Positions 18,967 to 60,851 of a DNA stretch of 64,000 nt are shown piece by piece. Within the stretch, counting starts at the first letter, position 1. Every line of letters starts with the position of its first letter. This DNA is from Ricinus communis (lineage: Eukaryota > Streptophyta > Magnoliopsida > Malpighiales > Euphorbiaceae). Under the pieces are notes generated by a model. It saw only the letters and a list, made by a program, of their open reading frames with translations, was not told the origin of the DNA and did not search any database. The position numbers and the translations under genes were made by a program. Location of the stretch: contig NC_063257.1 in NCBI RefSeq assembly GCF_019578655.1, positions 15,500,001-15,564,000 on the forward strand, in the 5' to 3' direction.

Positions 18967-18989
18967 AGAAAAAATTCAACCTCGAATTT

Positions 18990-20760: not shown

Positions 20761-21130
20761 AGACTACCTACTGACTTCTTGCTCAAGGTATCTGCCACAA
20801 CATTCACTTTACCTAGATGGTAGAGAATATTACAATCATAACCTCTCAGAAGCTCCAACCATCTCCTCTATCTCAGATTCAATTCCTTCTGTTGAAAAAT
20901 ATACTTCAAGCTTTTATGGTCCGTATATATCTCGCACGTCTTACCATAGAGATAGTGCCTTCAGATCTTTAAAGCAAAAATTACTGCTGCCATCTCCAAA
21001 TCATGGGTAGGGTAATTCTATTCATGCTTCTTCAATTGCCTAGATGCATAAGCCACTACCTTACCATTTTGCATCAGGATGCAACCCAAACCCACTCTGG
21101 AAGCGTCATAAAACACTGTGAGTCCACCAG
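20670..21130 (-). pseudogene. RNase H relic of E3
   Basis: Minus-strand pieces read LTLPSRT, then the region matching E4 [27 protein letters not shown] and NILYHLGKVNVVADTLSKK (20858-20670), the end of the Ty3 RNase H. Frame breaks occur near 20860 and 21020. Confidence 0.8.
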
Positions 21131-21960: not shown

Positions 21961-22591
21961 CTGGTGCCATTCGGTAGGGTGGCAAGGAAATAGGTGATGT
22001 ACCCGGTACCATGTCGATACAGAAATCTATCTCCCTATTAGGCGGCAATCTTGGTAGCTCTTCTGGAAATACATCAGGATACTCGTAAACCACCTGAACA
22101 TCCTCAACGCTACCTTTTCCTATTGAGGTATCCTTAACTAAAGCTAGATATCCCTGACACCCACGGTGAAGCATCCGCCTAGCTGTAATAACTGACATGA
22201 GATTCGATGGAGTAGGTACCTGCTCACCTTTAAAATGGAACTCTGAGTCTCTCGGTATTCGAAAAGCTACTTGTTTCTCCCGGCAGTCCAACATGGAAAA
22301 TTGCATAGCTGACCAATCCATTTCCAAAATTATGTCAAAATCCATTACGTCCAATAGAATTAAATTAGCAATTAAATCCTGACCCTCAACTGACACCGGA
22401 CACGACGGAAACACAACATCGATCTCTAAGGCATCACTTAATAGCGTAATGACCAACATCGAAACTTGAAGTCTAACGGGTTGGACATCCAATCTTAAAG
22501 CAAAACTAGGCGATACAAAAGAATGGGTAGCCCCATGATCTAATAAAACTCTAGCTTCAGAATAGCAGACAGGAATAATACCTGACACCAC
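21935..22591 (-). pseudogene. Aspartic protease to RT start of E3
   Basis: A 218-codon minus frame. Residues about 16-24 read LLDHGATHSF, where the family has D-S-G at the active site, so Ser is changed to His here. The flap and following motif is ILEMDW in place of ILGMDW. It continues through YEYPDVFPEELPRLPPNR and PPYRMAPAELKKL, the start of RT. Both altered residues make catalysis doubtful even where the frame is open. Confidence 0.88.
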
Positions 22592-22597
22592 AGCATT

Positions 22598-24120: not shown

Positions 24121-24138
24121 GATCGAAGGAAAACAAAA

Positions 24139-24155
24139 CCTAGGCTCTGATACCA
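24139..24155 (-). other. Primer-binding site of E3 (tRNA-iMet type)
   Basis: The minus strand reads TGGTATCAGAGCCTAGG, 4 bases after the LTR end GGTCGTGACA (24160). Confidence 0.93.
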
Positions 24156-24159
24156 ACTT

Positions 24160-26305
24160 TGTCACGACCCAATCTGTGGGCCCTTGACCAGTACTAAGGA
24201 ATGGATAAGCTTAAGGCCACCAAGTCCCGTAGTGAGCCTTACAAATCGATATTCAATAAACTGCATATAAAAAATATAATATTAATCATGTTTGACATGC
24301 CATACATAAATCTAGCTGGTCTTTGATAACATTTCACGTTCATTATGGACCAGAATGATCATAACAAATCAAAAATACTATTGCGGAAGGTTTAAAATAT
24401 AAGATAACTGAAAATATAAAAAGTATAGATCATTTACAATAAGTCCAATGAAGAAAAAAGTCTGGCTGTCAAAATGCAGGACGACGAAGAACTCTAACTG
24501 TCACTTGAAAAATAAAATTGAGACTGTCAATCTCTAGAGTGAGTTAAAATCACATAACTCTGTAACTATTGCAGTCTCCTCAATAAAATAATTTTCATTA
24601 ACTCAGTATATCATGCCATTGTGTATCAAAATACGAGTCATGCGTCCGAAAACGTTTAAGGACTTATGGGACGAGTGGCTCAGCAGAACTCTAACCCAAA
24701 ACGCTAGTAGTCTTTCGGCTCTCTTATTCTAATAGATCGGGCGCCCAGAGAGCGAAGCTCAACTAAGATCCTTACATCTAGCCTAGACTCTTGTTCCCCA
24801 ACTAAGCCGGCGTCTAGAGATTATTGCTCGACCAGGGACCTTTCTCCGGCAGTCAAACTTTCACAGTCCAGAGAGTTAATACTCGACCAGGTCAAAATCT
24901 AAAAATAACTTTTATTACCTGTCTCTTATTATTACCAGTGTGCACGCGATCCTGATGCAACCCATCAGGTGGCATGTTCTACTGTCACCTCATCCCAAAG
25001 TCACAATCATAACATTTATAAAAAATCATAAATAGACTATCCATAGGCAACATAATTTATTCAATTGCATATTGAGAAATAAAGTTTAGTAATATTGGGT
25101 AAAGCAAACATGCAAAATATCTGTAGAGATAATAGTAATAGTATTAAAATAACATTATTTAAAATATTATAAATAACGAGATAAATTAACTAATAATAAT
25201 ATTAAAATTATTTGTGATGATTATCAATTAAATGAAGTTTACCTATAATAATGATAATGATAATCATACATAAACATTAACCATTAAATATCGCATTAAA
25301 TCTAGACATTGCGAATGTACAACGATTATATGACTTTAACTCACAGTTCTATTGTGCTCCGCAATCCGCTCCTACGCCTCGGGTGGAGCTGGCGGGATGG
25401 GCGGATTATCTATCCACGAAAACACTCAGTTAATAGACATTCTTAAATTTCCTTAGGCCTAGATTCCTAGATTAGACTACCTAAAAATAATTCAGACTCG
25501 AGAACTCTGTCGAAAATTCGGCAAAACCTCCCCTAAATTACGAACATTTACCCCCCGTACAACGAGTTCATAACATGCTAAAAATACTTCAAATATTCTC
25601 AAATTAATTAACAAGAGTCGGGCCACCAAAATTGCATTATTTTTTTCGACTCTATAACATACCACAAATCACAATTAATTAAATCTAACTAATTTTAAAT
25701 TATCCATAATTGATAATTAATAGCCACAATATTCTTCAAAAATTATAACATAACTTTTGAGGTCCAAATAAAATTATACAGAGCCAAAATTTTAAAATTT
25801 CATGCATCCGAAAAAGACCGGGGTCCGGAAGCAGGTCCTACCAATGGTGTCAGAATTCGAATTCGGAAGCGCCTATGCGAAGCTCGAGTTATGGGGAGTC
25901 CGAAAATAAAATAGTTTCGGTCGGAAACTCGCCAGAAGGCACCATATCGGGGCTGGAAAAGGGCTGCTCTGATAAGCTGGACTGCAGTTGCCGGCGAGGG
26001 TTTCACGGCGAGGGAGCTCGGCCTAGTGATTTCCGGTGGTGAGGAGCTCAATTCTAGCATTGGATGGCTGAATGGATGTCGGTAGGAGGCTAAAACGGTG
26101 ACGGCAACTCCCTTTCCTTGAGGGGAAGGACGACAATGGGAGGAAAGGAGAGGGAGGGATTTGCGACAATGGCCTCGATCAAGACAGGAGGGGAAAAGAA
26201 GGTAGTCGTCGAGGAGAGAAGGGGAGGGATAGGGAGGGAAGGGAAGGAAGGAAAAAGAAAGGAGAGGGGGGTGGAGGAAGGAAAGAGAAAGGAAGGAATT
26301 ATTTA

Positions 26306-26337
<32 letters not shown>

Positions 26338-26356
26338 TTATTTTCTGGATATTACA
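24160..26356 (-). repeat. Complete 5' LTR of E3 (2197 bp)
   Basis: The minus strand starts TGTAATATCCAG at 26356 and ends GGGTCGTGACA at 24160. It carries GTCGAG/GCTCT repeat motifs (24720-24890) and a purine-rich block (26100-26300). The ORFs inside it are LTR sequence. Confidence 0.92.
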
Positions 26357-27960
26357 CTCAAGCTCTTACATTAAATGCAAAGAGAGGAGTTGGTGGAGAA
26401 AGCTCGACAGTCTTCAAAGGGTTTTAATCACCAGTGATAATGATTATGAGCTTTAGAGTACAGGTGGGGATGATTCTGCCTATAGCCCTTTATGTACACT
26501 GCAACGGTTAGTGATCTCAGAGAAGGCTCTTCTAGCGAGGCCCTAAGTGGATCAGATTCAAGGGTTACTCAAAAGGATGGAAAGAGTTAAGGCTAAGAAC
26601 AGCCAACAAGGTGAGCTCATGGAAGTTGAAGTCCAAAATATAAGGTACAAAAATTTAGTTCCAGCCCTATTACTAATCTAGTTGCTATCAAACTAACCTC
26701 CTTGCTTGGCCCATCTTCGAAGCAAGCCTTTTTATCTCAAAAAGCCTTAACTCAAAGACAACTTAGAAGATATAAAGTAAAACAAATGGCTCGTATATCT
26801 AATACAACCCTTGGCCCAAACTCATCCAACTCCCAATCCCAATTTTTTATTTCTGAGACAATTGCTCAAGAGCACCAAACAACAACCTAATCTCTATTGA
26901 AGATTTTAAACATCCCCTTGATCCTAAAATAGATAACTTTATGTTGAAAACCCTACCTTCTCAATCCTCTATTAGTGATAAGCCCCTTAAGATCTTTCTT
27001 TGGTGTCTGAGTTCGCTTTAGTGATTGGCGCACAACCACCATAAGAGAAATGGCATTCTTAGCTTGGAACTACCAAGGCCTTGACCTACCCCCGACAGTT
27101 AAAGCTTTTTGAGAGCTTATAAGGAAAAATAGCCTCTCTGTCATTTTTCTAAATAAAACGAAGCCGTGAAGTTCTTTCTTAGAAAAGCTTCGGAGTAGAT
27201 GGGGTTTTATATATATGTCATGTTGAATTAGTGGGGAGGGTTGTGATCTAGATTCAGATTTTGGGATCTAATAATCACTTTATTGATGCTTTGTGTTAGG
27301 GTGACTGCTTATGGCATTTTACAAGAGCTTATAGTCCTCTTAGACATGAGCAGAGAGCTAACTTCTTAAAGTCATTTGCAAGATTTAATTTTAATGATGG
27401 TACTCCTTAGACTTGCGTGGGAGACTTCAACTACTATTCTAGTCTTGCTGATAAGAAAGGAGGTTGTAATTTAGGTTGTATCAAACTGTGCTATTTAAAG
27501 AGCTTTTGGAAGTGAATGATCTAATCAGATTAGAATTCAAAGGGTAGAGGTTCATTTTGTCGAACAAGTGGCGGGGAGAAAATAACATTAAAGGTCGCTT
27601 GGATGAGGGAGTGGTGAATATAGAATGGTTGGCAGCCTATCTAGAGTCTCATGTGATTCATGATGCAATGATAGTCTCTGATCATATACCTCTAGTAGTC
27701 CAGATGAAGGAAAAGAAAAGAGCTTGTCAACAGTTAGGTACTAGTCAAGATTTTGTAAGTGGGACGGGATAGAAGTATTATGGAGAAGGCATGGTTGCGC
27801 GATGCTAGATTTGAAGAATCTATAAATATTTTTTTAATGAATCTAATAAGCTTGATCTCGAGAAATATAGTCTTGATAATCTAGTAGGTAATTTTGTAAA
27901 GCTTGACATCTTTGTCAATGAAGAAGGATGCCAAGACGAAAGAGCTTCTCATGAGCACCA
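26357..27960 (+). pseudogene. L1-type LINE relic (ORF1 end and ORF2 endonuclease)
   Basis: ORF2 appears to start at the ATG at 27050: MAFLAWNYQGLDLPPTVKAF, followed by SVIFLNKTK, matching the SWNCRGLG...FLMETK start of plant L1 apurinic-type endonucleases. Further on are TCVGDFNYYSSLADKKGG (about 27415), NIKGRLDEGVVNIEWL (27590) and SDHIPLVV (27680), then KAWLRDARFEE (about 27786). 26700-26890 may be the end of ORF1. Frames shift several times and RT is absent, being cut off by the Copia relic. Confidence 0.8.
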
Positions 27961-31851: not shown

Positions 31852-31856
31852 ATAGA

Positions 31857-34066
31857 TGTAATACCCTAAGAAAATAAAATAAAATAAAATAAATAATAAA
31901 AATTATTAATAATAATAATAATTAAAAAATAAATTTCCTTTTCTTTTTCTTTCCTCTCCTCCCCCAACCCCCCCCCCCCTCTTTTTCCTTCCTTCCCTTT
32001 CTCCTTTCCCATCCCCTTTCTCCCCGACGCCGTACTCCCCTATCCTTCCTCGCTACCGAACGAACTGCTGCCACAACCCAGCCTCCTCTCCCTTCCTCCC
32101 GCTACCCTGCTGCCCTTCCCCTCCTCCTTCCCTTCCATAGCGACGTTGCCCGAAGGAAGGAGATGTCGTCGCTGTTACGGCCACCTGTCATCCTCCTTTC
32201 GGCCATCCGACGCCGGATTCGGGTCCCTCACCACCAAAAACCTCAGAAACAAGCTTCCCCTGCCATTTTCCACCGTCGGCGGCCTCGGAGAAGCTTCGCT
32301 GGAGCCAAGACTTTCTGGCCCCAATCTGGTGCCTTCTGGCGAGATTCCAGCCGAAACTCTTGTGTTTTCAGACTCTTCGGAACTCGAGCTTTGCGTAGGC
32401 GCTTCCGGATTCGAATTCCAAGACCGTTGGCAGGAACAGCTTCTAGACCTTGGTGTTTTTCGGACACGTGAACTATTAAAATTTTGGCTCGGTGTAATTT
32501 TATTTAGGCCCTAAAAATTTATGTTATAATTTTTAAAAAAATATTATTGCTATTAATTATCAATCATGGATAATTTAAAATTAATTGGATTTAATTAATT
32601 ATGATTTATGGTGTGTTGCAGAGTCAGAAAAAATAATGGAGTTTTGGTGGCCCGACTCCTGTTAATTAATCGCAGAATATTTCAAATGTTTTCAGCAGAT
32701 TCTGGGCTCATTATACGAGGGTAAATGTCTATCATTTAGATGAGATTCTGCCGAATTTTTGATAAAATTCTCGAGTCTAAAATAATTTTAGGTAATTTAA
32801 TCTAGGGGTCTAGGCCTAGAAAAATTTAAGAATGTCTATAAACTGAGTATTTTTATGAATAGATAATCCGTTCATCTCGACAGCTCCACCCGAGGTGTAG
32901 GAGCGGACTGCGGAGTGTGACAGAACTGTGAGCTAAAGTCATATAATCACTGTACCATTGGCATGTCTAGATTTAATGCGATATCTAAGATTAACATTTA
33001 TGTATGAATATCATTATCTTTATTATAAGTAATTTAATTTAATTGATAACTATCACGAATAATATTATATTATTAGTTAGTTTACCTCGTTATTTACGAT
33101 ATCTTGAATAGTATTATTTTAATACTATTAATTTCATCACCACTCATAAACTGCATGTTTATTATTCCCGAGATTTTCTAAATTTTTAATTCTCATTATG
33201 TTATTGAATACATGATGTTGGCCTGTGATTATTCTATTTATGATTTTTATAAATGTTGTGAATGTGACATTGGGATGAGGCAACAGTAGAACATGCCATC
33301 ATAAATTATGTTGGCCTCTGATTATTCTATTTACGATTTACAACAGGACTGCGTGCGCACCAGTAATAGTCAGAGGCAGGTAACAAAGGTTATTTTTAGA
33401 TTTTGCCTTGGTCGAGTATAACTCTTTGGGCTGTAAAAGCTTGACTGCCGGAGAAAGATCCCTAGTCGAGCAATGCTCTCTGGGCGCTAGCTTAATTGGG
33501 AATCAAGTGTCCAGGCTAGATGTAAGGATCCTAGTTACGCTTTGCTCTCCAAGCGGCAAACCTATTGGAATAAGGGAGCCGAAAGGCTACTAGCATTTTA
33601 GATTAGGGTTCTGCTGAACCACTCATCCCATAAGTCTTTAAATGTATGTTCTTTCTAAATTATGGCATGACTCATATTTTAATACAAAATGACATGATAA
33701 ACTGATTTAATGAATATTATATTGAGAAGACTGCAATAGTTACAGGGTTATGTGATTTTAACTCACTCTCGAGGCTGACAGTCTCAATTTTATTTTTTCA
33801 GGTGATAGTTAGAGTTCTTCGCCGTCCTGCATTTTGACAGCCTGATTTCCTTCTTCATCGGGCCTATTGTAAATAATTTATACTTTCATATTTTTAATTA
33901 TTTTAAATTCTAGACTTTTCGTAGTAGTATCTTTGATTTGTTATGTTTATCTTGGTCTATAATAAACATGAAATGTTATCAATAACTAGTTAGAAATTTG
34001 TGTATGGCATGTCAAACAGGATTAATATTATGTTTTCATATGCACTTATTTGAATATCGATTCAGG
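31857..34066 (+). repeat. 5' LTR of E4, 3' end deleted
   Basis: It matches the 3' LTR up to aatatcgatt, then jumps into gag (caggaagccgtgg). The last 85 bp or so of the LTR, the PBS and about 450 bp of leader and gag start, judged from E3, are missing. It opens with a poly-C/T tract at 31950-32000. Confidence 0.9.
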
Positions 34067-35199: not shown

Positions 35200-35806
35200 T
35201 GTTGTGGTGTCAGGTATTATTCATGTCTACTATTCTGAAGCTAGAGTTCTATTAGACCTTAGGGCTACCCACTCTTTTATATCCCCTAGTTTTGCTTTAA
35301 GATTGGATGTCTATCCCATTAGACTTCAAGTTCCGATGTGAGTCACTACACCATTAAGTGATGCCTTAGAGACCGATCTTGTGTTTCCGTCGTGTTCGGT
35401 ATCAATTGAGGGTCGGGATTTGATTGCTAATTTAATTCTATTAGACGTAAATTTGGGAATGAATTGGTCGGCTATGCATTATGCCATGTTGGACGGCTGG
35501 AAGAAACAAGTAACTTTTCAAATCCCAGGGGACTCAGTGTTCCATTTTAAAGGTGAGCAGGTACCTACTCCATCGAATCTCGTGTCCACTATTATAGCTA
35601 GGTGGATGCTTCGCTATGGATGTCAGGGATATCTGGCTTTGGTCAGGGATACCTCCGCAGGAAAAGGTAGTGTTAAGGGCGTTCTAGTGGTTTGCGAGTT
35701 TCCTAATGTATTTCCAAAAGAGCTACCAGGATTATCGCCTAATAGGGAGATAGAGTTCTGCATCAACATGGTATCAGACGACATCTATTTTCTTGCGCCC
35801 TACTGA
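35200..35806 (+). pseudogene. Protease relic of E4
   Basis: The first active-site region is near 35250 (ATHSFISPSF in another frame, with the Asp-Ser-Gly lost). 35381-35806 has FPSCSVSIEGRDLIANLILL, NLGMNWSAMH and FPNVFPKELPGLSPNREIEF. A short deletion removes residues before LGMNW relative to E3. Confidence 0.85.
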
Positions 35807-37080: not shown

Positions 37081-38510
37081 CACATGGAGGTATTAGAATC
37101 GGGAGCATCGTTAGCACATTTCAGGGTTAGATCTGTACTCGTTAACAGAATTAGGTTAGCTCAGAATCAAGACAATTACGAAAAATCTTGGAAGAAGTGC
37201 AGTAGGTCGAGCTAATGATTTTATTATAGATGATGATGGTACTCTCAAAATGGGCACTAGGTTGTGTGTTCCCAATGTGGATAATATTCTCTACCATCCA
37301 GAGCCTACCAAAATGTATCATGATTTGAAAGGAAATTATTGGTGGAATGGAATAAAGAGGGATGTGGTAGAGTTTGTCACCAAGTGTCTAACGTGTCAGT
37401 AGGTCAAATTAGAGCATCAGAAGCCGTCAGGGTTATTGCAACCGCTTCCCATACCAGAATGGAAATGGGAAAGGATTAATATAGATTTTGTTCCGAGTAT
37501 ACCCAAAACTTCGGCTGGTTATGATTCTATTTGGATAGTTGTGGAGCAATTGACTAAGTCAGTGTATTTCCTTCCGGTGAAGACTACTTATTCTATGGCT
37601 AAGTATGCACGAGTGTATCTGGAGAGAACTGTCAATCTTCACGGCGTTCCTATTTCCATAGTGTCTGATAGAGGACCGTAGTTCACTTCGAGCTTTTGGA
37701 AAAAGCTACAAGAAGAGCTTGGTACCATATTGAACTTCAGTACAGCTTTTCACCTCCAAACTAACGAACAGTCGGAAAGGACTATTCAGACCTTAGAGGA
37801 CATGCTTCGCATGTGTGTTGATTGAATTTAAGGTTGATTGAATTCGCATATAACAATAGCTACCATGGAAGCATTGAGATGGCACCTTATGAGGCATTGT
37901 ACGGCCGGAAGTGCAGATATCCTGTGTGCTGGGAAAAGGTTGGCGAACGGAAGTTAGCAGGACCAGAGTTGGTTCAGATTACTTCAGAAAAGATTTATAT
38001 TATCCGCGAGCAACTGAAGACAGCTTTTAGTAGGCAAAAAAGTTATGCGGATCCGAAGAGGAAGCACGTGGAGTTCAGTGTTGGGAAATATATGTTCTTG
38101 AAGGTGTCCCCTATGCGTGGTGTGATGCGGTTTGGCAAGAAAGGCAAATTAGCCCCTCGATATGTGGGACCCTTTGAGATTATAGACAGGATTGGAAAGG
38201 TGGTATACAAGCTAGACTTGCCACCAAATTTCTCGTATGCACATCCAGTATTTCACATATCAATACTAAGGAAGTACATTTCGGGCCCTTCGCACATATT
38301 GCAGCCTCAATATGTGGAAGCAAGTGAAGATCTGACTTACAAGGAGCAGCCAGTCATGATCATGGATGCTCAAGTTCGCCAATTGCGCTCTAAAATTATT
38401 CTAATGGTTAAGGTGTTGTGGTGGAACCATTCATCATATGAGTGTACCTGAGAGACCGAGCAGATAATGAGTCTTTACCCTTATTTGTTCCAATCCTGAG
38501 GTAAGCCTTA
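37081..38510 (+). pseudogene. Integrase relic of E4 with chromodomain-like tail
   Basis: Zinc region near 37310-37410 (KMYHDLKGNYWW, KCLTCQ then a TAG). Core 37436-37681: WKWERINIDFVPSIPKTSAG, VKTTYSMAKYARVYLERTV, SDRGP followed by TAG. 37822-38451: IEFAYNNSYHGSIEMAPYEA, HPVFHISILRKYISGP, and the tail IILMVKVLWWNHSSYECT, corresponding to the V-LW-NH-EEATWE chromodomain signature with the acidic residues lost. Confidence 0.9.
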
Positions 38511-38544: not shown

Positions 38545-38557
38545 AAGGAGGGTAGAA
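38545..38557 (+). other. Polypurine tract of E4
   Basis: AAGGAGGGTAGAA immediately precedes TGTAATACCC, the start of the 3' LTR. Confidence 0.9.
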
Positions 38558-39121
38558 TGTAATACCCTAAGAAAATAAAATAAAATAAAAAATAAAAATT
38601 AATAATAATAATAATAATAATAAATAATAAAAATTAAAAAAAATTCCTTTTCTTTTTCTTTCCTCCCCTCCCCCTTTTTCCTTCCTTCCCCTTCCTCCCT
38701 TCCCTTCCCCTTTCTCCCCCGATGCCGACAGCTTCCCTCTCCCTCCTCGTGATAAAGCAAACGGATCACGCCGCCCGCTTCTTCCTTCCTCTCCGCCAGA
38801 CGCTTCCTTCCTCCTTCCCTTCTACAAATGACGCCGCTCAAGGAAGGAGTCACATCGCCGCCCGACCTCTTACCATCCTTTCGGCCATACGACGCCAGAT
38901 TTGGGTCCCTCACCAATGAAAACCCTAGGAACAAGCTTCCCCTGCCGTTTTCCACCGCCGGCAGCCTCGAAGAAGCTTTGCTAAAGCCGAGACTTTTCGG
39001 CCCTGATCCGGTGCCTTCTGACGAGATTCCGGTCGAAACTCTTATGTTTTCGGACTCTCTACAACTCGAGCTTCACGTACGTTCTTCCGGATTCAAATTC
39101 TAACACCGTTGGCAGGACCGG

Positions 39122-40415
39122 TGATGTGTTGCATTCTATACTTATTTTTATGCTTTATTTATTCATGTTTATGCATGTATTTGAGTCATTTTTATGCTAG
39201 ATTCACCATAATGGGTATCTATTTATGTTTTCAGGTTATTTGGACTCTCAGCTTCATTTTTGGAGAAAAATCAAAGGACTTCGGGCCTAAACAGGACTTT
39301 CAAGTGGATTTCAGGGCTTGAGTATGGCCCATGGCACCACTCTGCTGCCTGGCCGAGGCAATACTATTTCTCAGAGTACTATGTTTTTAAGGCCAGTGCA
39401 CGGCTTGTGCATTAAGCACGGCCCATGGCATGGCCCGTGCATGCATTTTCTATATATATGAGTTCAGTTTTTTGAGAAAAGTGTTCTGCATTCTGATTTT
39501 GAGACTCTTACGCGCATGCGCGACCTTCCACTTTCCAAACTTCTTGACTGACCTTGGAGACCATTTTCACATATTGAAGGACGGATTTGAGGAGATTCAA
39601 GCTTCTTTGAGAGATCGAAGAGACGGATTATGAAGCATTCAATTTGATTTTGGCATTGTCCACTTTGATTTGAGAGAAGGGTGTACATGTTCCAAGTCCA
39701 AGCTAGAGCTAACGAACTCACTGGGGTTCCTATTGTTGATGGATTTTTTTTTTATTTGTTTTGATTATTAGATTACCAATTTGTAATCCTTATTGCTTTT
39801 CAGTAATAAAAGTTTATTTTATTTACTTGAGACGTTGAGTTAAATGTTGTTTGGATTGTTTAATTGGTATTGAGAAATTCGTTAAACAATTGGAACTTGA
39901 TTAAGTAAGAACTAGTTAATAACACTTAGAGATAAGGTTAATTGGCAAGCCGGATTAAGGATTAACAACTCTTAATAGACTTGAATCAAATCTTAATGTC
40001 GTTCTGAGATTAATTGTTAGGCAGAGATTCCAGCATTTAGTTTCTAGAGTTAGGAACTCGGTGAGCTCGAGAGAGGATCTGAGTTCATTCTAGGATTCAA
40101 GCATGGATAATCAATTTGGTAATCAAGATAATCACCTTTAGTAATTCTATTGCAAATAGGTCATCTTTGAGTTTGCTTTCTTCCTGTGTTTGCTTTATTA
40201 TCTTTTCAATTTGTTTGGCATTTTACTTTGTATTTCATCATTTCTAGTTTATAGTTTAGTTGACCTTTCACCATTTGCTTAAGGTTAGATAACACTTAGT
40301 ACATTAGTAGCTTTAGGTTCACCCGTTCCCTAGAGGATACGACCTTGATACTCGCCATTATGCTAGACTATATCGATAGGTTCAACGCCTGTAGTCCGCA
40401 TCAAAGACTTCATCA
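39122..40415 (+). repeat. 5' LTR of E5
   Basis: It starts TGATGTG at the target duplication. It has palindromic cacggcccatggc words and a TATA-like tatatatatg at 39451. It ends in catca at 40415 (or gcatca at 40403), next to a remnant of the Athila PBS. Confidence 0.75.
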
Positions 40416-40419
40416 AGTT

Positions 40420-40445
40420 TTGTTGTCAGGGATCTTTGCAACGGT
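40420..40445 (+). other. Decayed Athila primer-binding region
   Basis: tgttgtcaggga sits where Athila elements read TTGGCGCCGTTGCCGGGGA. It is clearly altered compared with the intact site of E2 at 17290-17308. Confidence 0.5.
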
Positions 40446-40584
40446 GAACTAAAGTGAATTGTTCCTGTGTTAATTTAGCATTATTCTCTCATTCTTTGTT
40501 TCTGTATATTTTATTCTTTTTATTTTTATTTCATTTATTCATTATTCTTTCCTTGTTGGTTGTGATTTCCATTTCAGGTAGTTT

Positions 40585-41640
40585 ATGACTAGGAGCTCTA
40601 GCTCTGATCTTGTAGAGCCTTTGTCTGATCCGGAGCGATCCTTCAAAATTTTGAGGAAGCGATGCAACTCCGAGGAGGAGATCGAGGTCGAGATACCTGG
40701 ATAGACCAAGAGGGATGGAGAATCACAATGGAAATGTCATGCGACGCCAATGTAATCGATGTACGAGTTTGCTAGACCATCATTGGTTAGGACACGGACA
40801 GTATACCCGAACGCTTGGGTGGCGCCTAACAACTTCGAAATCGTTTCTAACATGATCTGATGGTTCGTAATAGTGCCTGCTTGGAGGGTTGCCGAGCGAG
40901 GATCCTAACGCTCACATTGCTAACTTCTTAGAGATATGTGATACCTTCAAGATAAATAGAACTACTGATGATGCCATTCGGCTGAGGTTGTTTCCATTTT
41001 CTTTGAGGGATAAAGCAAAGAGATGGCTGCAGTCCTTTCCATCGAACACTATCACTACTTGGAATTCTTTGGCTAAGAAATTTCTTTACAAGTACTTTCC
41101 TCTAGCTAAGACTGCTAAATTGAGGAATGACATTTCTTTTGTGCAGATGGACGACGAGAGCATGTATGATGCCTGGGAGAGGTACAAGGACTTGTTAAGA
41201 TGCTGTCCACACCACGGTCTACCAGTCTGGATGCAAGTTCAGACATTTTACAGTGGTTTGAATCTTGCTACTAGACAGATGGTTGATACAGCAGCAAGAG
41301 GGGCGCTAAACAGTAAGACGCCCGAGCAGGCTCAGAACTTGATCAAGGAGATGGCCATGAACAATTATCAGTGGCAGTCTTCTAGGAGCCGACCAGTGAG
41401 GCAGGGAGTAGTCAATCAGTTAGATTCTACAACAGCCTTGGTAGCTCAGATGGAGCTATTGGCTAAGAAGATCAACCAGCTCCAAATGTCGGCCCATGCA
41501 GCTCAGAGCAGCTGTGAGTTTTGCATTGGCCCGCATTTCAATACGAAGGTGTAATGCGGGAGGTTTGTTTGCTAGTACTTCTATTCCTTCTTCCTCTTCT
41601 ATTTTATCCACTGACCTTGAGTAGGTAGATTATATGGGCA
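40585..41640 (+). pseudogene. Athila gag relic of E5
   Basis: It starts at the ATG at 40585 (MTRSSSSDLVEPLSDPER). A TAG follows at about 40702 and frameshifts before 40889. The long open part (40889-41554) has PSEDPNAHIANFLEICDTFK, LRLFPFSLRDKAKRWLQSF and a knuckle start CEFCIGPHF followed by TAA. This is the capsid core, with the same family motif as E2 (PSED-NAH). Confidence 0.9.
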
Positions 41641-43028
41641 ATGGCCCGAGGCAGCAAGGGACCCCGTACAGCAACACTTATAACCCAAGGTGGCGTAATC
41701 GTCCAAACTTCGGTTGGAGAAATAACAACGCCCAGGGTCCACCAGGCTTTCAAAGACTGCATCAGTAGCCACCATAGCAATAGCAGCAGGCTAGACCATC
41801 ACAGCTTCCTCCACCAGTCGAGAAGAAATCTAACTTGGAGGAGCTGATGATGAAGTTTGTCATATCTACTGAGACGAGGTTCCAACAGACTGACAGTGTT
41901 CTTAGAAATCAACAAGCCTCCATTCAGAACTTGGAGAGTCAGATTGGGCAGATTTCTAAGATGTTGTCTACGAGGCAACAAGGAGCGCTCCCCAACACTA
42001 CAGATTCAAACCCAAAGGAGCATTGCAAGGCTATCACCTTGCGATCAGGTAAGCAGTTATCTAGTTCTTTACCATTAGCTGATGATGATGATGTTTCTAT
42101 ACAGGATGAGCCAGCTAGGAAGGAGTTAGAACCTGAGGTGATAGAAGGAGAGAAAGTGGAAGACAAGCAGAAGAGCCATGTGAGAGAGTACCAGCCACTA
42201 GTCCCCTACTATGCTCGACTTAAGTAGGAGAAGGTTGATAAGCAGTTTGGTAAGTTCCTTAACTTGTTTAAACAACTGCGTATTAACCTACCTTTTGTTG
42301 AGGCTATTTCGCAGATGCCGAAGTATGCCAAGTTCTTAAAGGAAATTTTGAGCAACAAAAGAAAGCTGGAGGATTTGGGACTAATGACTCTAAATAAGGA
42401 GTGTTCAGCTATTCTTCAAAATAAGCTGCCACTCAAAAGGAGAGATTCGGAGATTTTTACTGTTCCCTGCATTATCGGTGATTTGCCTATTAGTGGTGCA
42501 TTGGCTGATTTAAGAGCTATTATTAATTTGATGCCTAGTAGTTTGTTTGATAAGTTAGGTTTGAGTGAACCTAACCCCACTAGGATGAGCATTCAGTTAG
42601 CTGATAGGACTGTTAAGATTTCTAGGGGTATTATTGAGAATGTGCTTGTTAAGATAGACAAGTTTATTTTTCCTGTTGATTTTATAGTTATGGACATGGA
42701 AGGTGAGAGTACTGTGCCTTTGATCCTAGGTAGACCTTTTCTTGCAACATCTAGGACTGTTATAGATGTTTGTGATGAAAAGCTTCAGCTTAGGGTAGAT
42801 GATGAGACTATTACCTTCGACTTAGCTACTACTATGAGACATTCTTTAGACCATGATGATGTTGTGTTTTCTATGGATATTATGGATGATGTGGTTGAGT
42901 GTCATTTGCAGGAAATATTGTTTGATGATCCTTTGTGTTGGAGCAGCTCGCTAGTTTGTTGGCTACTGAGCCTAGCTGTTCTACTGACCCATTTCTTTCT
43001 TTGGACAGGTCAGGAGTGCAAAAGGTAA
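41641..43028 (+). pseudogene. Gag C-terminus and protease relic of E5
   Basis: 41835-42227 has FQQTDSVLRNQQASIQNLES, a coiled-coil-like stretch, and KEHCKAITLRSGKQL. 42264-43028 has the protease: ALADLRAIINLMPSSLFDKL, where the family usually has DLGASIN and the catalytic DLG has become DLR, then FIVMDMEGESTVPLILGRPF and ATSRTVIDV. A TAG at 42226 separates the two parts. Confidence 0.88.
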
Positions 43029-44780
43029 AGTCTTCTTTCGAGGACCCCCCGGTCTTAGAATTGAAGGAGTTACATAAGCACTTGAGCTATGGATTTTTGG
43101 ATGAGGCAGAAAAGTTGCTTGTGATTGGTGCAGCAGATTTGATGCCTAAGGAGCGAGAGATGAATTTAGACTCCCTCAAGAGGAATAAAAAGGCCTTTGC
43201 CTTCAAGATTACTGACATTCCCGGGATTAACCCTAGTTTTTGTTCTCACAAGATTTTGATGGAGGATAGCTATAGACCAGTAGTTCAGCCACAAAGGCGG
43301 CTTAACCCGAATATGAAGTAGTGAAAAATGAGGTAATTAAGCTCCTTAATGTATGTCTGACTTATCCTATTTCTAACAGTTCTTGGGTGAGCCTGTGCAG
43401 GTTGTGCCGAAGAAAGGAGGCATGACAGTAGTTCGTAATGAGAAGGATGAGTTGATACCCACACGGACGGTAATAGGCTTCCGAGTTTGCATTGATTACA
43501 GGAGGCTTAATGTATGTTTGACTTATCCTATTTCTAACAGTTCTTGGATGAGCCCTGTGCAGGTTGTGCCGAAGAAAGGAGGCATGACAGTAGTTCGCAA
43601 TGAGAAGGATGAGCTGATACCGACTCAGACGGTAATAGGCTTCCGAGTTTGCATTGATTATAAGAGGCTTAATGATACAACTCAAAAGGTTCACTTCCCT
43701 CTTCCTTTCATTGATCAGATGTTAAGAGAGATTGGCAAGACATATGTTTTACTGTTTTCTTGATGGCTTTTCAGGTTATCTCCATATTCCAATTGCACCT
43801 GAAGACCAAGAGAAGACGACTTTCACCAGCTCCTACGGGACTTTTGCTTATAGACGGATGCCTTTTGGTCTATGCAATGCGCTGACTACGTTTCAACGAT
43901 GTATGATGACCATTTTTGATGATATAATTAAGGAGTTGATGGAGGTATTTATGGATGACTTCTCTATTTTTGGTGATTCCTTTTCTTACTGTTTGGCCAA
44001 TTTAGAACGCATGTTAGCTAGGTGTATTGAGGTCAATTTGGTGCTTAATTGGGAGAAGTGTCATTTTATGGTGAGAGAGAGAATTGTGTTAGGGCATAAG
44101 ATTTCACATGCAGGGATGGAGGTTGATAGAGCTAAGGTAGAGACCATATCTAAGCTGCCACCCCCTAGTTCTGTTAGGGCTATTAGGAGTTTCTTGGGCC
44201 ATGTTGGTTTCTATAGAAGGTTTATTAGAAATTTCTCTAAGATTGCTAGGCCTCTTACTCAATTACTAGTTAAGGATGCACATTTTATTTTTGATGATGC
44301 ATGTTTATCTGCTTTTGAGTTATTGAAGAAACTATTAACCACAGCCTCTATCATGGCTTCGCCTGATTGGGGGCTGCCCTTTGAGCTTATGTGCGACACT
44401 AGTGATTATGCAGTTGGAATTGTAATTGGACAGAGGTTTGATAGGAAGTTCCAACCCATTTATTATGCTAGCAAGACTTTGATAAGAGCCCATGAGCATT
44501 ACACTACTATAGAGAAGGAGTTGTTGGTTGTTGTTTATGCCTTTGACAAATTCATATCATACCTCGTCTTATCATCGTCTTCACTGACCATTCAGCTTTG
44601 AGGTATTTGTTTAATAAGCATGATGCTAAGCCGAGATTGATTAGATGGATTTTATTGTTACAGGAATTCGACATTGTGATCGGAGATAAGAAGGGCGCAG
44701 AAAATTTGGCAGCGGATCACTTATCCAGACTAGAGAATCCGAGCTTGGAAGCACTTGATGAGAGCACGATAGATGATCGA
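43029..44780 (+). pseudogene. RT-RNaseH relic of E5
   Basis: 43383-43763 has VQVVPKKGGMTVVRNEKDEL twice because of a tandem duplication. 43732-44601 has FSGYLHIPIAPEDQEKTTFT, YRRMPFGLCNALTTFQRCM, the catalytic box VFMDDFSIFGDSF (about 43945), SFLGHVGFYRRFIRNFSKIA and the RNaseH start FELMCDTSDYAVG. RNaseH ends in AENLAADHLSRLENP (44700). The frame breaks at 43735 and 44600. Confidence 0.92.
43345..43667 (+). repeat. Tandem duplication of about 161 bp in the RT domain
   Basis: cttaatgtatgt begins at 43345 and again at 43506, and the following cttaatg is at 43668, giving units of 161 and 162 bp with few differences. The two units differ in length by one base (tgagcctg versus tgagccctg), so the copies are read in different frames. 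Confidence 0.93.
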
Positions 44781-44789
44781 TTTCCAAAG

Positions 44790-46110
44790 GAGCACTTGTA
44801 TTCATTAAAGGTATATTTTGATTCTCCTTGGTTTTCTGATTATGCTAACTACCTTGTGGCTAGGGTCTTACCAAAGGGTATTGACTTATCAGCAAAAGAA
44901 GAAATTCTTTGCTGATTTGAAATATTACATTTGGGAAGGCCCCTTCCTATATCGAGTGTGTGCAGACCAAGTCATTCGCCGATGTGTTTATAGCAAAGAG
45001 AGTCTCCAGATTCTGAGGCACTGTCATGAGGGACCCGTAGGAGGCCATCAAGTGGCAAACCATACTGCTAGGAAGGTGTTGGATGCATATTTTTATTGGC
45101 CAACTATCTTCTAGGATGCTAGGACATTTGTTCAGGGACGCTTATTAGCGCTCAGATAACATCTCTGCCTGTGAGGAAATGCCCCAAACTAGAATCTAGG
45201 TAGTTGAGATATTTGATGTTTGAGGTATTGACTTCATGGGACCCTTCCCTTCTTCTTATCGCAATAAGTATATTATTGTGGTTATTGAGTATTTCTCCAA
45301 GTGGCCTGAGACACAGGCTTTACCTACTGATGATGCCAGAGTTGTTTGCAAGTTCCTTAAGAAGTTATTTGCTAGGTTCAGCACACCTAGAGCGTTAATT
45401 AGTGACAGGGGAACACATTTCTGCAACGCTCAATTGGAGAAGGCACTCAGACGCTATGGTGTGACATAGCGGTTCTCTACTCCCTATCACCCACAGACCA
45501 GTGGGCAAGTTGAAGTTACTAATAGGGGTTTAAAACGTATTTTAGAGAGAGTTGTAGGTGTGAGTAGGAAGTATTAGGCTTTGAAATTGGATGATACATT
45601 ATGGGCATTTGGGACTGCATATAGGACATCCATACGTTTTACGCCCTATAGGCTTGTGTATGGGAAGTCTTATAATTTACCTGTTGAATTAGAACATAGG
45701 GCTCTTTAGGCCCTTAAAACTTGAAATTTTGATGTTGATTCTGCAGGTAAGGAGAGACAATGGCAGCTGAGTGAATTGGCGGAGTGGCGTCAGCAGGTGT
45801 ATGAAAACTCTTCAATTTACAAGGTTAGGACGAAGAAGTGCATGATCAGAGGCTCAGAGGTTCCCAGGAGTTTCAGATTGGAGATAGAGTATTGTTAGAT
45901 AACTCACATCTTCATTTGTTTCAAAGGAAGCTCAAGAGTCGATGGTCGGGGCCATTCGTGGTCAAGCAGGTTTTCCCATATGGCACGGTCGAGCTTCATC
46001 ATCCTGAGAAGGGTGATTTCAAGGTCAATGGACATAGGCTCAAATTGTATCATGGAAACTCATTGGAGATTGAGCAACAGGTTGATATGGTTATGTATTT
46101 GCAGGGATGA
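44790..46110 (+). pseudogene. Integrase relic of E5
   Basis: HCHEGPVGGHQVANHTARKV (zinc region, 45020), then the DDE core: first Asp in GIDFMGPF (preceded by a TGA), YFSKWPETQALPTDDARVV, second Asp in SDRGTHFCNAQLEKALRRYG, Glu in [10 protein letters not shown] (45500). The C-terminal domain is LKSRWSGPFVVKQVFPYGTV (45930-46110). Stops lie at 45112, 45466 and 45575. Confidence 0.92.
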
Positions 46111-47346
46111 TCCATTTCAGAGTCTAGCTATATGACTCGGGAACAAAAAAAAGCATTTCCATTTACTTAGTTGATTTTTACTTTATTCATCTTCATTTTT
46201 TTTAACTGTTTAGTGTTAGTTTATTCAATTTGATTGCGGAACTTTTTCCTTTGTTGGTTATTTTTGGGTTGATTTTGCATATTTGGAATGCCTTGGATCA
46301 TGTGTTTCATTTTCTGCAAGTTTTTAGAGAGTTTCAGAGCCGAAAATAGACTCGATGTGCGAGCAAGGGCACGTGCACGTCCGTGCTCGCTACACGGCCC
46401 ATTCCATGGCCAAAGCATTATGGACCGTTGCATGGATCACGGCTCGTGCACCCACCTATGTGCGCCCTTTCCTATACAAACACGTTCGTTCTTTCTTGTT
46501 ACTCTTTTGGCTTTCCATTTTTCTCCCCTTATCTATGAATTTTATGCGGTTTTCCAAGGCAAATCAGGTTAGTTTTTAATACTTTTAATTTCCATTCTCT
46601 TTGTGATTTACTTTGTTAGATTAGTTTTCCTGAAATTTTTAATTCTTTCATTGCTTAACTCGTTCTGATTGTTCTACTCTTCAATTTCGAGTCTTTTACT
46701 TAGTTTACTTGGATTTTAATTTATTTTTTTCTTTACTTGTCCCAAATTTAGGATTTTTCTTTCTTTATTTTCATTGCTATCTTTTTAATTCTGCTCTTTT
46801 TGTTTTGTTTGATTGATTCTTTGTTTTTCTTTTGCATTTTATTTTAGTTTTATCTTGGTATCTTCAATTTTAATTTTATTATCATTCTTTTTCTTTTTAC
46901 ACCATTTTCAAATTTTGAAATTTTCTAGGTTGAAATTTGTGAACTATAGGGACTATCAGTATTCTATGTGTTTTATGCTGTTGGCCTATTGATATTCTTT
47001 TGCTGTGAATTGCGGCTCCCAATGCCATTAGGCATTTTTATTGTTATATCTTGTGCTACAAAATGCCATTGGGCATCCCATTTTCTATCCTTTGCAGGTT
47101 TTAGAGGCTTGGGTACCTTCCCCTAAGTTTTCTGGCACCTAACCTTACCCGTTATGCTGCCGAAATTTCAGCTCAATATGTTTGTTGCTTGATTCATTTA
47201 CTTGCATTGAATGATTGTGAATGCTCGATGCTTAACTTTAATTTTTATCAGGTAAAATGGCAGACGATCAACAACACCGACACAACCCCTCTCGCCCTAC
47301 AAGTGAAAGGGCAAGAACAAATGCATCATCCTCTGAGCAGCATGAT
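46111..47346 (+). other. E5 pre-env region and truncated start of env-like ORF (copy A)
   Basis: It is T-rich and non-coding to 47256, with cacg words at 46360-46450 and a 3' splice acceptor-like ttttatcag before the ATG at 47257. The ORF starts MADDQQHRHNPSRPTSERAR and is cut at about 47346, where the sequence turns into the reverse complement of 46758. The turn lies in the shared word gatagc. Confidence 0.8.
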
Positions 47347-47735
47347 AGCGATGAAAACAAAGAAAGAAAAATCCTAAATTCGGGACAAGTAAAGAAAAAA
47401 ATAAATTAAAAACTAATTAAACTAAGTAAAAGACCTGAAATTGAAGAGTAGAACAATCAGAACGAATTAAGCAATGAAAAGAACTAAAAATTTCAAAAAA
47501 AACTAATCTAACAAAGTAAATCACAAAGAGTATAGAAATTAAAAGTATAAAAGTATTAAAAACTAACATGACTTGCCTTGGAAAACCGCATAAAATTCAG
47601 ATAGAAGAGGAGAAAAATGGAAAGCCAAAAGAGTAAAATGAAAGAATGAACCTATTTGTATAAAAAAGAGCTGGCATAGGTGGGTGCACGGGCCATGCTC
47701 CGTGCACTGGGCAGTGCAACGGTCCAACGGGTTTT
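47347..47735 (-). repeat. Inverted copy B of the E5 pre-env region
   Basis: The reverse complement of this piece aligns with 46421-46758 of copy A. At its right end it carries about 20 bases (cggactccggtg and neighbours) resembling the E4 LTR flank found just beyond 49302. Confidence 0.8.
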
Positions 47736-48329
47736 CGGACTCCGGTGATAGCCTCTCTATACTCATCTGACTGTGCCTCCTCAACTGTCCACATGCCCAA
47801 AGCTACTTCGAACTAAGCAACTAACATGGCAAAAGAGCGGCCAGTCGGAATGTGATGGTGCCTGGGGTGGTGTAATCCTGGAGATGCAGCTAGAGCCAGA
47901 AAGTGCTGAAAAACTCCTAAGTAATCTCCTTGTATGTGGACTCTCTGATGTCGAAAAATCTGTGCCATGGAAGTGTCTCTAAAAGGGAAGACACCTCATC
48001 AAACAATCTGACATCTCTCAATGCCTACCAGTCTACACATCTCCTTGTACCCAGCGTCTTATTTCTGACTATTATGAATCTGTCTATTTGCAAAGTATTG
48101 GTGAAGGTTAGAAATCTATGTCTGGGTGGTGCTGGTGGTTGCAGTCGAGCTTTAGGGTGATCTGCAACTCTAGGATGCACTAGGGTATGTGGAGGTGCTA
48201 CTCTAGGTGCTAGAGGTGCCTCTGAAGGTGGCTGCTAATCATGCTGCTCAAAGGATGACGCGTCTGTTCTTGCCCTTTTACTTGTAGGGCGAGCGGGGTT
48301 GTGTCGGCGTTGTTGATCGTCTGCCATTT
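47736..48329 (-). pseudogene. Env-like ORF relic of Athila, inverted copy C
   Basis: The minus-strand ATG at 48329 gives MADDQQRRHNPARPTSKRAR, the same start as copy A. A TAG follows after about 30 codons. Further on are FFDIRESTYKEIT, TTPGTITFRLAAL and WTVEEAQSDEYREAI-type residues (last in another frame, about 47770), as in the plant transposon protein ORF of Athila elements. Function is unknown; it is not an active gene. Confidence 0.65.
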
Positions 48330-49297
48330 TACCTGATAAAAATTAAAATTAAGCATCGAGCATTCACAATCATTCAATGCAAGTAAATGAATCAAGCAAC
48401 AAACAGATTGAGCCGAAATTGTGGCAGCATAACGGGTAAGGTTAGGTGCCAGAAAACTTGGGGGAAGGTACCCAAGCCTCTAAAACCTGCTAGGGATAGA
48501 AAATGGGATGCCCAATGGCATTTTGTAGCACAAGATATAACAACAAAAATGCCCAATGGCATTGGCGTGACAGAATTCTGACAAAGAAAAGAATATCAAT
48601 AGGCCGGTGATACAACACAGAATCGATAGCCCCTATAGTTCACAAATTTCAACCTAGAAATACACCCTATAATCTAACATGCAGAAAATTGAAATCAAAA
48701 GTAGAATCAAGCTAAGTAAAATCTCGACTAAGAATTCCAGAATTCGAAAATGGTGTAAAAAGAAAAAGCAAAAGAATGATAATGAAATTAAAACTAAAGA
48801 TACCAAGATAAAACTAAAATAAAATGCAAAAGAAAAATAAAGAATCAATGAAACAGAACAAAAAGAGCAGAATTAAAAAGATAAAAACGCAATCAAAAAT
48901 GAAAGGGAGATGGGAAAGAGACTTACCTAGATCCTGATAGCAATGAAAATAAAGAGAGAGAAATCCTAAATTCGGGACAAGTAAAGAAAAAAAATAAATT
49001 AAAAACTAAGTAAACTAAGTAAAAGACCCGAAATTAAAGAGTAGAACAATCAGAACGAATTAATCAATGAAAAGAAATAAAAATTTCAGAAGAACTAATC
49101 TAACAAAGTAAATCACAAAGAGAATAGAAATTAAAAGTATAAAAGTATTAAGAACTAGCCTGATTTGCCTTGAAAAACCGCGTAAAATTCAGAGAGAAAA
49201 GAAAAATGGAAAGCCAAAAGAGTAAAATGAAAGAATGAACCTGTTTGTATAGGAAAGAGCGTGCATAGGGGGGGTGCACAGGTCGTGCAACGGTCCA
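48330..49297 (-). repeat. Inverted pre-env region, copy C, forming the right end of E5
   Basis: The reverse complement aligns with 46421-47256. The small frames at 47189-47377 (+) and 48210-48395 (-) give nearly identical peptides, which demonstrates the inverted repeat. It ends at CGGTCCA directly at the ACCGG duplication. Confidence 0.85.
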
Positions 49298-50741
49298 ACC
49301 GGCTTCCGGACTCCGGTGTTTTCCGAACGCGCAAAATATTGAAATTTCGGCTCGGTATAATTTTATTTAGATCGTAAGATTATTTTATAATTTTAGAAAA
49401 AATATTGTTGCTATTAATTATCAATCATTGATAATTTAAAATTAATTGGATTTAATTAATTATGATTTGTGTTGCGAAGTCGGAAAGAATAATGCAGTTT
49501 TAGTGGCCCGACTCCCGTTAATTAATCGCAGAATATTTGAAGTGTTTCTAGTACGTTCTGGACCCGGTTTTGGACCCATTGTAGGGGGGGTAAATGTACG
49601 TAATTTAGAGGAGGTTCTGCCGAATTTTCGATAGAATTCTCGAGGCTAAAATAATTTAAGGCAGTCTAATCTAAGGGTCTAGCCCAAGGAAAATTTAAGA
49701 ATGTCTATTAACTGAGTGTTTTCGTGAATAGATAATCCGTCCATCTCGCCAGCTCCTCCCGATGCGTAGGAGCGGACTGCGGAGCGCGACAGAACATTGA
49801 GTTAAAGTCATATAATAACTGTACCATTGGCAATATCTAGATTTAATGTGATATCTAATAATTAACATTTATGTATGAATATTATTATCGTTATTATGAG
49901 TCATTTCTTTTAATTGATAATCATCACGAATAATATTAATATTATTATTAGTTAGTTTACCTCGTTATATATGATATCTTTAATAATGTTATTTTAATAC
50001 TATGAATATTATCACTACTCATAAACTGCTTGTTGCTATTCCTAAGATTTCTAAATTTTTAATTCTCATTATGTTATTGAATAAATTATGTTGGTCTGTG
50101 ATTATTCTATTTATGATTTTTATAAATGTAGTGAATGTGACATTCGGATGAGGCGACAGTAGAACATGCCACCTGATGAGTTACATAAGGACGGCGTGCA
50201 CACTGGTAATAATCAGAGGCAGGTAATAAAGGTTATTTTTGGATTTTATCCCGGTCGAGTATAACTCTCTGGGCTATGAAAGCTTGACTGTCGGAGAAAG
50301 GTCCCTGGTCGAGCAATGCTCTCTAGGCGCCGGCTTAATTGGGAATCAAGTATCCAGGCTGGATGTAAGGACCATAGTTGAGCTTCGCTCTCCGGGCACC
50401 AGACCTATTGGAATAAGAGAGCCGAAAGGCTACTAGCATTTTAGATTAGGGTTCTACTTTGCCACTTGTCCCATAAGTCTTTAAATGTATTTTCTTTCTA
50501 AATTATGGCATGACTCGTATTTTAATACAAAATGACATGATATACTGATTTAATGAATATTATATTGAAGAGACTGCAATAGTTATAGGGTTATGTGATT
50601 TTAACTCACTCTCGAGGTTGACAGTCTCAATTTTATTTTTTTCAGGTGACAATTAGAGTCCTTCACCGTCCTACATTTTGACAGCCCTACTTCTTTCTTT
50701 ATCGAGCCTATTGCAAATAATTTATACTTTCATATTTTTAA

Positions 50742-50896
50742 GGGAAAAGGCTCAAATTTGCCCCTAAAGTATAACCTCAGGTGCAGATTGGCCCTCTATA
50801 TTTTTTTTAGACAGTTGCAGATAATATCTCGCCAAACAAAGTTCTTAAGCCCCTCTTTTGACCTGTTAATGATGGAGGTGAAGAACGGAAGAAACT
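50742..50896. repeat. Left terminal inverted repeat of the MULE
   Basis: It starts GGGAAAAGGCTCAAATTTGC and matches the reverse complement of 52313-52467 with only a handful of mismatches. Confidence 0.93.
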
Positions 50897-51036
50897 TTCG
50901 TTAAATACAACTGAGGTGTTCGATTGTCTGTGAGTTATTTCCACTGTCTCTCCACTCCCTTTCTTTGTCTGTCTTTTTGTTTTTCTTGAGAAACCAAAAA
51001 AAAAAAAAGAGAAAACAGGAGGAAAAAAAAAAACCA

Positions 51037-51490
51037 GAGACAATCGAACCTGTGCAACTGTCTCCTTCTGTCCGCCGTTCCAGGCCTAAACATAAAAACT
51101 GCGACAGCCCGTCGTCTAAAGGCATTTGAGCTAGAACAATCACAATCATCGCGCAAAGTCCAAACTAAAAAAGAACAGTCTCTTAAATCACTTTCAAAAT
51201 CTCTCACTACTTGGCTTAATTTCCTCCTCCAAAACCCGAGATCCTGCGGCTGTGATTTAACCGTAATTAATGATCAAGATGGAAGCTTTCCAGAGAAGTT
51301 AGGGAGGAAGAGACAGAGGAATGCTCAATGGCGTAGTTCGAAGAGGCTGAGAGGCAGTGATTTTATGGAGATTAATGGAGCTAACGGGTTTTCAAATTCA
51401 AACAACTATGAATTGTTAAGGAAATCGTTGAAAGATGTGTATAGTTTGGATGATTTGAAGCACAGAATGAGACTTCATTTGAATTATTAA
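51037..51490 (+). pseudogene. Captured fragment of an ASPM-like (abnormal spindle) gene
   Basis: A frame open for 131 codons ends at TAA 51488-51490. Residues include ARRLKAFELEQSQSSRKVQ, KEQSLKSLSKSLTTWLNFLL, QNPRSCGCDL, GRKRQRNAQWRSSKRLRG and SLKDVYSLDDLKHRMRL. From memory this matches the N-terminal region of plant ASPM-type microtubule/spindle proteins, ahead of the calponin-homology and IQ parts. Upstream (51037-51090) the same protein seems to continue in another frame (SPSVRRSRPKH), so one frameshift lies near 51095. No ATG opens the frame. The fragment lies in the same direction as E4. It may be transcribed from the TIR, but nothing in the sequence proves it. Confidence 0.75.
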
Positions 51491-52312
51491 AGCAAAAACT
51501 ATGAATTATTAAAGCCAAAACTCATTTAGGACTTTCAACAAACACCTTAACTACCCATTCTTCTCCTTTGCCTTCTACGCTAAATCCTATTTCAAGACCT
51601 GCAAATAATCACAACCCATTTTCTACACAGTCTTCCAAGGCATAATATTCCAGTAAATAAAAATTTTAATCAGGAATTGTATCAAACACTTCTAAGGCAT
51701 AAAACAAAGCACAAGAGTCACGTTACCAATAAAGTAAAGAATTAGCAACAACAATATCATAGTTAAATAAAGTTGTTTTAATCAAATGGGCATGAATAAC
51801 TTTTGTCTCTTCAACAATATGATGTGCAGATTTTGAGTAGTTAGTGAACAAGGGAATGATAAGAAAAGAAGGTGGTTCTTCTTGTTCATATTTGATGGGT
51901 TGCAGAATATGGGTAGTGAAGATATAAGTTGGAAAAATGAGATTGGAATTATCTTGGTCATAATTAACATTGGATCAACATGTTCTTAGAAAAGAACTTA
52001 AGATGTAACCTTTATTTGACATGCAATTTTTAGTGGAGAAACATGACAAAATTGTTGGTCGAATAATTAGTTCTATATGTGTAGAGGTGAGTTTAAGAAA
52101 GAGTATTTATGGTTAAAGTGTGTTCAAGAAAGAGAATTTTCTTTAGTAAAGAAGAGTATTTGTTTTGCTCAACCAAAAAGAAAAGAGTATTTGTTTTGAA
52201 AAGAAATATGCATATTGAGAGAAAAATTAGAGTATTATAGAGAAAGAAGAGGAAGAAGAAGAAGTGCGGTGATGTGTACTGTAATGAGTCCCAAATTTAA
52301 AAGAAGTTTGTC
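51491..52312. other. Right internal part of the MULE, unassigned
   Basis: It is AT-rich. A short direct repeat (gaattattaaagc, 51481 and 51506) follows the ASPM-like stop. The minus frame 51970-51782 has no family I recognise. It may be another captured piece or 3' sequence of the same gene. Confidence 0.5.
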
Positions 52313-52467
52313 GCGACTTCCTTTCTTCAGCTCCGTCATTAACAGGTCAAAAGAGGGGCTTAAGAACTTCGTTTGGCGAGATATTATGTGCAACTGGCTA
52401 AAAAAAAATATAGAGGGCCAATCTGTACCTGAGGTTATACTTTAGGGGAAAATTTGAGCCTTTTCTC
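52313..52467. repeat. Right terminal inverted repeat of the MULE
   Basis: It is the reverse complement of the left TIR. The outermost bases differ slightly (gagccttttctc against GAGCCTTTTCCC). Confidence 0.93.
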
Positions 52468-52730
52468 TATTTTTAATTATTTTAAATTCTAAACTTTTTG
52501 CAGTAGTATCTTTGATTTGTTATGTTTATTCTAGTTTATAATAAACGTGAAATGTTATCAAATACCAGTTAGAAATTTGTATATGGCATGTCAAATAGGA
52601 TTAATATTATGTTTTCATATGTAGTTATTTGAATATCGATTAGTAAGGCTTACTACGGGACTTGGTGGCCTTAAGCCTACCCATTCCCTAATACCGGTAA
52701 CGGGCCCACAAATCGGGTCGTGACAATAGA

Positions 52731-60791: not shown

Positions 60792-60851
<60 letters not shown>

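Follow-up and report, generated by a model that had tools for sequence, protein, structure and literature searches.

The element at positions 50742-52467 of the window, by which is meant the whole 64,000-nucleotide stretch of Ricinus communis (castor) DNA analysed here, is very probably a well-preserved, non-autonomous Pack-MULE that contains pieces of two unrelated castor genes in opposite orientations, and these pieces are probably now decaying. It begins with a left TIR at 50742-50891 on the plus strand, which starts with GGGAAAAGGCTCAAATTTG, and ends with a right TIR at 52317-52467 on the minus strand. When aligned in inverted orientation, the TIRs are approximately 151 bp long and 93-94% identical (141/151, or 142/151 when one flanking base is included, with one gap), and the score of this match is 73, as compared with a maximum of 15 for 200 shuffled sequences, none of which reaches it. 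The 9-bp TSD TATTTTTAA is read directly on the left at 50733-50741 and on the right at 52468-52476, and its two copies are identical. These results bear out the TIRs of about 155 bp and the perfect 9-bp duplication claimed in a preliminary description of this DNA. Pack-MULEs are described as non-autonomous MULEs that contain gene fragments, with a TSD of 9-11 bp and TIRs of 100-500 bp (PMC3310237). The putative assignment of the castor element to the MULE superfamily is made only from the TIR length and the TSD, both of which lie within these ranges, and the element further resembles Pack-MULEs in that host gene fragments are located between the TIRs and no transposase is located inside.

The absence of a transposase is indicated by a Pfam scan of 14 of the 16 open frames, the remaining two being located outside the element; the longest of the 16 frames encodes 166 amino acids. 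The matches of these frames to RMC1_C, Gemini_AL3, Holin_BhlA, PH_S11IP_C and DUF4211 are below the curated cut-offs and are taken as chance. The TIR end is found nowhere else in the window. No relative of the element is found among viral contigs, either by protein or by TIR end (0 matches for the latter), or among plasmid records. The left TIR is separated from the first captured piece by an A-rich spacer (50892-51054, plus strand). A 23-nt inverted repeat at 50918-50940 and 51027-51049 is not accepted as a fold-back scar, because 44 of 300 shuffled sequences contain an equally good one. Upstream of the right TIR, an AT-rich filler is located at 51965-52316, between this TIR and the second captured piece. 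The frames of this filler give no Pfam match above the cut-off and only chance-level matches to the castor protein P0126, which the second piece resembles; it may represent the 5' side of that capture.

The element is inserted in the 3' LTR of a Ty3-type retrotransposon. This LTR runs on the plus strand through 49302-50741 before the element (88.4% identity to 32439-33897) and through 52477-52726 after it, where it ends with GTGACA. Comparison of the window with itself reveals two further copies of the LTR that do not contain the element, at 31856-34062 on the plus strand and 24159-26344 on the minus strand. The flanks of the element, when joined, are identical to the former at 277 of 305 positions through the junction at 33889-33897, with a single 1-base gap far away from it, and to the latter, around 24411-24422, at 255 of 302 positions, with small gaps, one of which is 14 bases from the junction. 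The preliminary description placed the empty site in the sister LTR, and this is correct, because the copy at 31856-34062 pairs with the split 3' LTR of the same retrotransposon: its segments 31856-32437 and 32439-33897 match 38557-39119 and 49302-50741, and its last part matches 52477-52641. The region between these sister LTRs contains a Ty3-type protease frame (RVP_2, 35342-35803) and a frame with a Tf2-1-like SH3 domain (37822-38448). The TIRs, the TSD, the empty site and the ASPM homology described below support the earlier proposal of a Pack-MULE nested in an LTR.

The 3' LTR is split not only by the Pack-MULE but also by an insertion of roughly 10.2 kb (39120-49301), such that position 39119 continues at 49302. 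This insertion contains a gag frame (40874-41551) and a reverse transcriptase frame (43726-44598), and inverted and direct repeats are located near 46421-49318. The retrotransposons at 18102-26359 and 31856-52726 are related Ty3-type elements in opposite orientations, with internal regions that are 82% alike over 3.4 kb. The one on the minus strand retains TTGGTATCAGAGC beside its LTR, presumably a tRNA-Met primer binding site, which it resembles.

The first captured piece (51055-51484, plus strand) encodes a fragment of the castor ASPM homologue, corresponding to residues 55-197 of this protein (P0006), with 129 of 143 residues identical. When the translated frame was used as a query without extension, five of 14 candidate proteins matched, of which three are plant 'hypothetical proteins' and two are nameless. 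When the query was extended with X so that full-length proteins qualify, at E values up to 0.001, 220 of 488 candidates matched, and the best 120 of these 220 are used in the analyses below. The top match is the Ricinus communis abnormal spindle-like microcephaly-associated protein (E 2.1e-69, 92% identity). The next species is Mercurialis (65%), and the ranks after castor are occupied, among the matches listed, by six other Euphorbiaceae (55-65%). This result confirms the proposed origin of the frame from the N-terminal region of ASPM. The parent protein contains CH and IQ matches above the Pfam cut-offs and an Arm match of 19.5 bits, just under the cut-off of 20.6; the Arm repeat is counted among the features of plant ASPM homologues. 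The captured piece is located before this CH/IQ/Arm region, and neither its frame nor two of its short relatives, P0003 and P0005, match any Pfam family. Mad2 was rejected as an identity of the frame, because the eight PDB sequence matches pointing to it are weak (E 0.075 or worse) and are ascribed to chance.

The ASPM frame is open from stop to stop at 50990-51490 and contains both motifs quoted in the preliminary description. The 131-codon frame reported there is open as stated, but it contains no ATG before 51365, and the ASPM match starts in another frame, at 51055. A frame-aware alignment places one frameshift after residue 68, beside a run of A at approximately 51094-51098.

The second captured piece was missed in the earlier account of the cargo, which was right about ASPM. 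It is located on the minus strand at 51964-51641, antisense to the ASPM piece, and encodes residues 9-122 of the castor 'pentatricopeptide repeat-containing protein At1g74600, chloroplastic' (P0126; E 6.8e-29, 78 of 107 residues identical). We take At1g74600 to be OTP87. The minus-strand peptide VIHAHLIKTTLFNYDIVVANSLL gave the first hint of a PPR protein, and a search with a query containing X at the stops and extended with X identified this castor protein as the sole match among 111 candidates. The PPR piece is damaged by one stop and two frameshifts and lacks seven residues by deletion. The captured frame has neither a Pfam nor a PDB match of its own, and its identity is based on the protein search and the frame-aware alignment; the parent protein itself contains PPR repeats according to Pfam. 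Castor proteins corresponding to both captures are present in the database.

The preliminary description took the open ASPM frame, in the midst of elements full of stops, as a sign that the capture is young or was kept open. This proposal is not supported, because the frame contains a frameshift and no start codon, the 3' junction of the piece is rearranged, the changes are not detectably steered to variable sites, and openness of this kind is common by chance. Simulated neutral change of 4% leads to 8.8% amino acid change, as compared with 9.8% observed (14/143), and leaves 45% of the copies open. The starting sequence of the simulation is the frame in its present, open state; any changes that occurred in the parent line would mean a smaller divergence of the capture and a larger chance of openness. 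By a simple count rule, eight of the 14 changes occurred in the capture and three in the parent line, and three are ambiguous. The mean entropy of the 14 changed positions is 1.65, as compared with 1.33 for the unchanged ones (P 0.28; permutation P 0.15). In contrast, the 43 differences between Ricinus and Mercurialis are concentrated at variable positions (2.28 versus 0.94, P 9e-12), and the differences of the capture are located at less variable positions than these (P 0.02). The homologues in this test, the best 120 of 220 together with the capture, are not independent, because many are isoforms or near relatives of each other. The power of the test is limited, because only 14 changes are available, and mild constraint is compatible with the result.

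Maintenance of the frame by selection, either for a small ASPM-derived peptide or for a functional chimeric transcript, is nevertheless most improbable. The stop-free frame of 390 nt and the identity at 129 of 143 residues speak for such selection, as does the slightly higher variability of the changed positions, which is not significant. However, no ATG precedes codon 90 of the frame given in the preliminary description, the frame is shifted near its start, two of the changes (P to S and C to Y) affect residues that 118 of 119 homologues share, and a frame of this divergence would stay open by chance in approximately 45% of cases. An open frame in a captured fragment is by itself no evidence of youth or function. 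Both captured pieces have the appearance of passengers in decay and not of functional genes. Any function of the element would more probably lie in a putative antisense or small RNA transcribed from the TIRs than in a protein.

The host retrotransposon probably predates the Pack-MULE, a relation that the nesting itself requires. The K2P distances of the LTR pair are 0.160, 0.128 and 0.099 for three segments, as compared with 0.069 for the TIR pair, which represents an upper bound for the age of the element, because TIRs need not start identical. The two captured pieces have decayed unequally: 29 of 107 residues are changed in the PPR piece, as compared with 14 of 143 in the ASPM piece (Fisher P 0.0006). 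This difference suggests that the pieces were captured stepwise, on the assumption that the PPR piece comes from the gene for the castor PPR protein in the database and not from a paralogue of it.

A joint capture of both pieces from the two named parents would require that the PPR parent changed faster than a neutral piece. An earlier capture of the PPR piece, or a paralogous PPR source, is therefore likelier than such a joint capture, as far as can be judged from the protein alignments. A rather unlikely alternative is that both pieces were taken up in a single event, either from an already decayed source or from a PPR paralogue, such that the gap in divergence does not represent two dates. 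PPR genes form a large family, and their number favours a paralogue; the fact that a single castor protein matches among the 111 candidates and the faster than neutral change that would be needed in the PPR parent argue against this alternative.

The 3' junction of the ASPM piece bears on how this piece was gained. Two tandem copies of 21 nt, 95% alike, are located across it at 51480-51522 on the plus strand. A 19-nt sequence that runs across both copies (51494-51512) resembles the ASPM sequence at 51401-51419, approximately 90 nt upstream (89%). When 51380-51640 is shuffled 300 times, no shuffle contains a direct repeat that equals the best one of this stretch, the score of which is that of the tandem pair. 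The ASPM match ends at 51484 in 114 of the 120 homologues used (the best 120 of 220) and at 51472-51499 in the other six. The short ASPM-like repeats might represent a trace of template-switching repair; the tandem pair could instead have been generated by later slippage. Gap filling with template switching has been proposed for gene-carrying DNA transposons in animals (PMC8277862), and the mechanism by which Pack-MULEs acquire genes was described in 2012 as not understood (PMC3310237). At the left junction, a 13-nt sequence (51051-51063) that resembles the right TIR (92%) might be a microhomology, but it is given no weight here, because by a rough estimate chance alone would produce one or two matches of this kind.

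The intron-free state of the ASPM piece in the matched stretch could also be explained if a processed pseudogene or a segmental duplicate had landed in the MULE by a separate insertion. This explanation is very unlikely, since the sequence downstream of the ASPM piece, as read, contains no poly(A) run, the A-runs instead being located before the piece, since two unrelated truncated fragments are located inside one TIR pair, and since ASPM-like repeats are present at the junction.

A layered element, in which the two pieces were captured at different times and the copies at the ASPM junction represent a scar of template switching, is proposed here only tentatively. According to this proposal, the PPR piece would have been taken up first, and the ASPM piece would have been gained later in the course of gap repair or by template switching. 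A transposase supplied elsewhere would then have inserted the element in the 3' LTR of the older retrotransposon, and both pieces would now be decaying neutrally. If this proposal is true, the junctions of the element could show how MULEs capture genes.

On the plus strand, the stretch between the two captures (51523-51640) looks like coding sequence as far as approximately 51647. The coding-like sequence KAKTHLGLSTNTLTTHSSPLPSTLNPISRPANNHNPFSTQSSKA is located at 51511-51647 and possibly represents a third captured piece. Three peptides from the stretch give no Pfam match.

This type of event is well known, and the castor element adds a dicot case to the gene captures by Mutator-like elements. 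Relatively few Pack-MULEs are given for dicots, 46 for Arabidopsis and 220 for tomato (PMC3310237). The castor element shares its TIR and TSD ranges, its gene fragments and its non-autonomy with the Pack-MULEs described for rice, Arabidopsis and tomato (PMC3310237; PMC8903248), but differs from those described there in its passengers, ASPM and an At1g74600-type PPR protein, and in its host. Pack-MULEs with fragments from multiple loci are mentioned in a paper on flax (PMC3544724), and the castor element resembles them in containing two unrelated fragments; it may differ from them in that its fragments are opposite in orientation and unequal in decay. An antisense piece of a PPR gene is likewise located inside a DNA transposon of grapevine, Cactavine-5, which differs from the castor element in that it belongs to the CACTA superfamily and contains its own transposase ORF (PMC2528002). 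The pair of ASPM and PPR passengers is not met in the literature searched. The claim that an ASPM capture is unreported holds for the full-text literature, a scope outside which most subscription journals fall, because no paper that combines Pack-MULE with abnormal spindle is found there; nor did the literature search find a paper that combines abnormal spindle with Arabidopsis and At4g21820. Judging from titles and the beginnings of abstracts, none of the papers found for castor in connection with Pack-MULEs or gene capture has castor Pack-MULEs as its subject, and the word Ricinus is absent from the texts of PMC8903248 and the review PMC13317346. Because the retrotransposon, the element and the captures can be placed in a likely order, the castor element offers a good opportunity to test whether capture is stepwise and how capture junctions form.

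Several other features are located elsewhere in the window. A 56-nt palindrome at 60793-60848 is merely a TA repeat and was dropped. Direct repeats of 664 bp are located at 8260-8923 and 11739-12401 (95% alike), and further direct repeats, 94-95% alike, are located at 6297-6693 and 10919-11315, and at 3538-3897 and 10562-10921. These repeats look like a younger repeat family. A minus-strand frame at 57960-58454 matches the Plant mobile domain of Pfam (PF10536, E 4e-15), a domain that is often associated with transposons.
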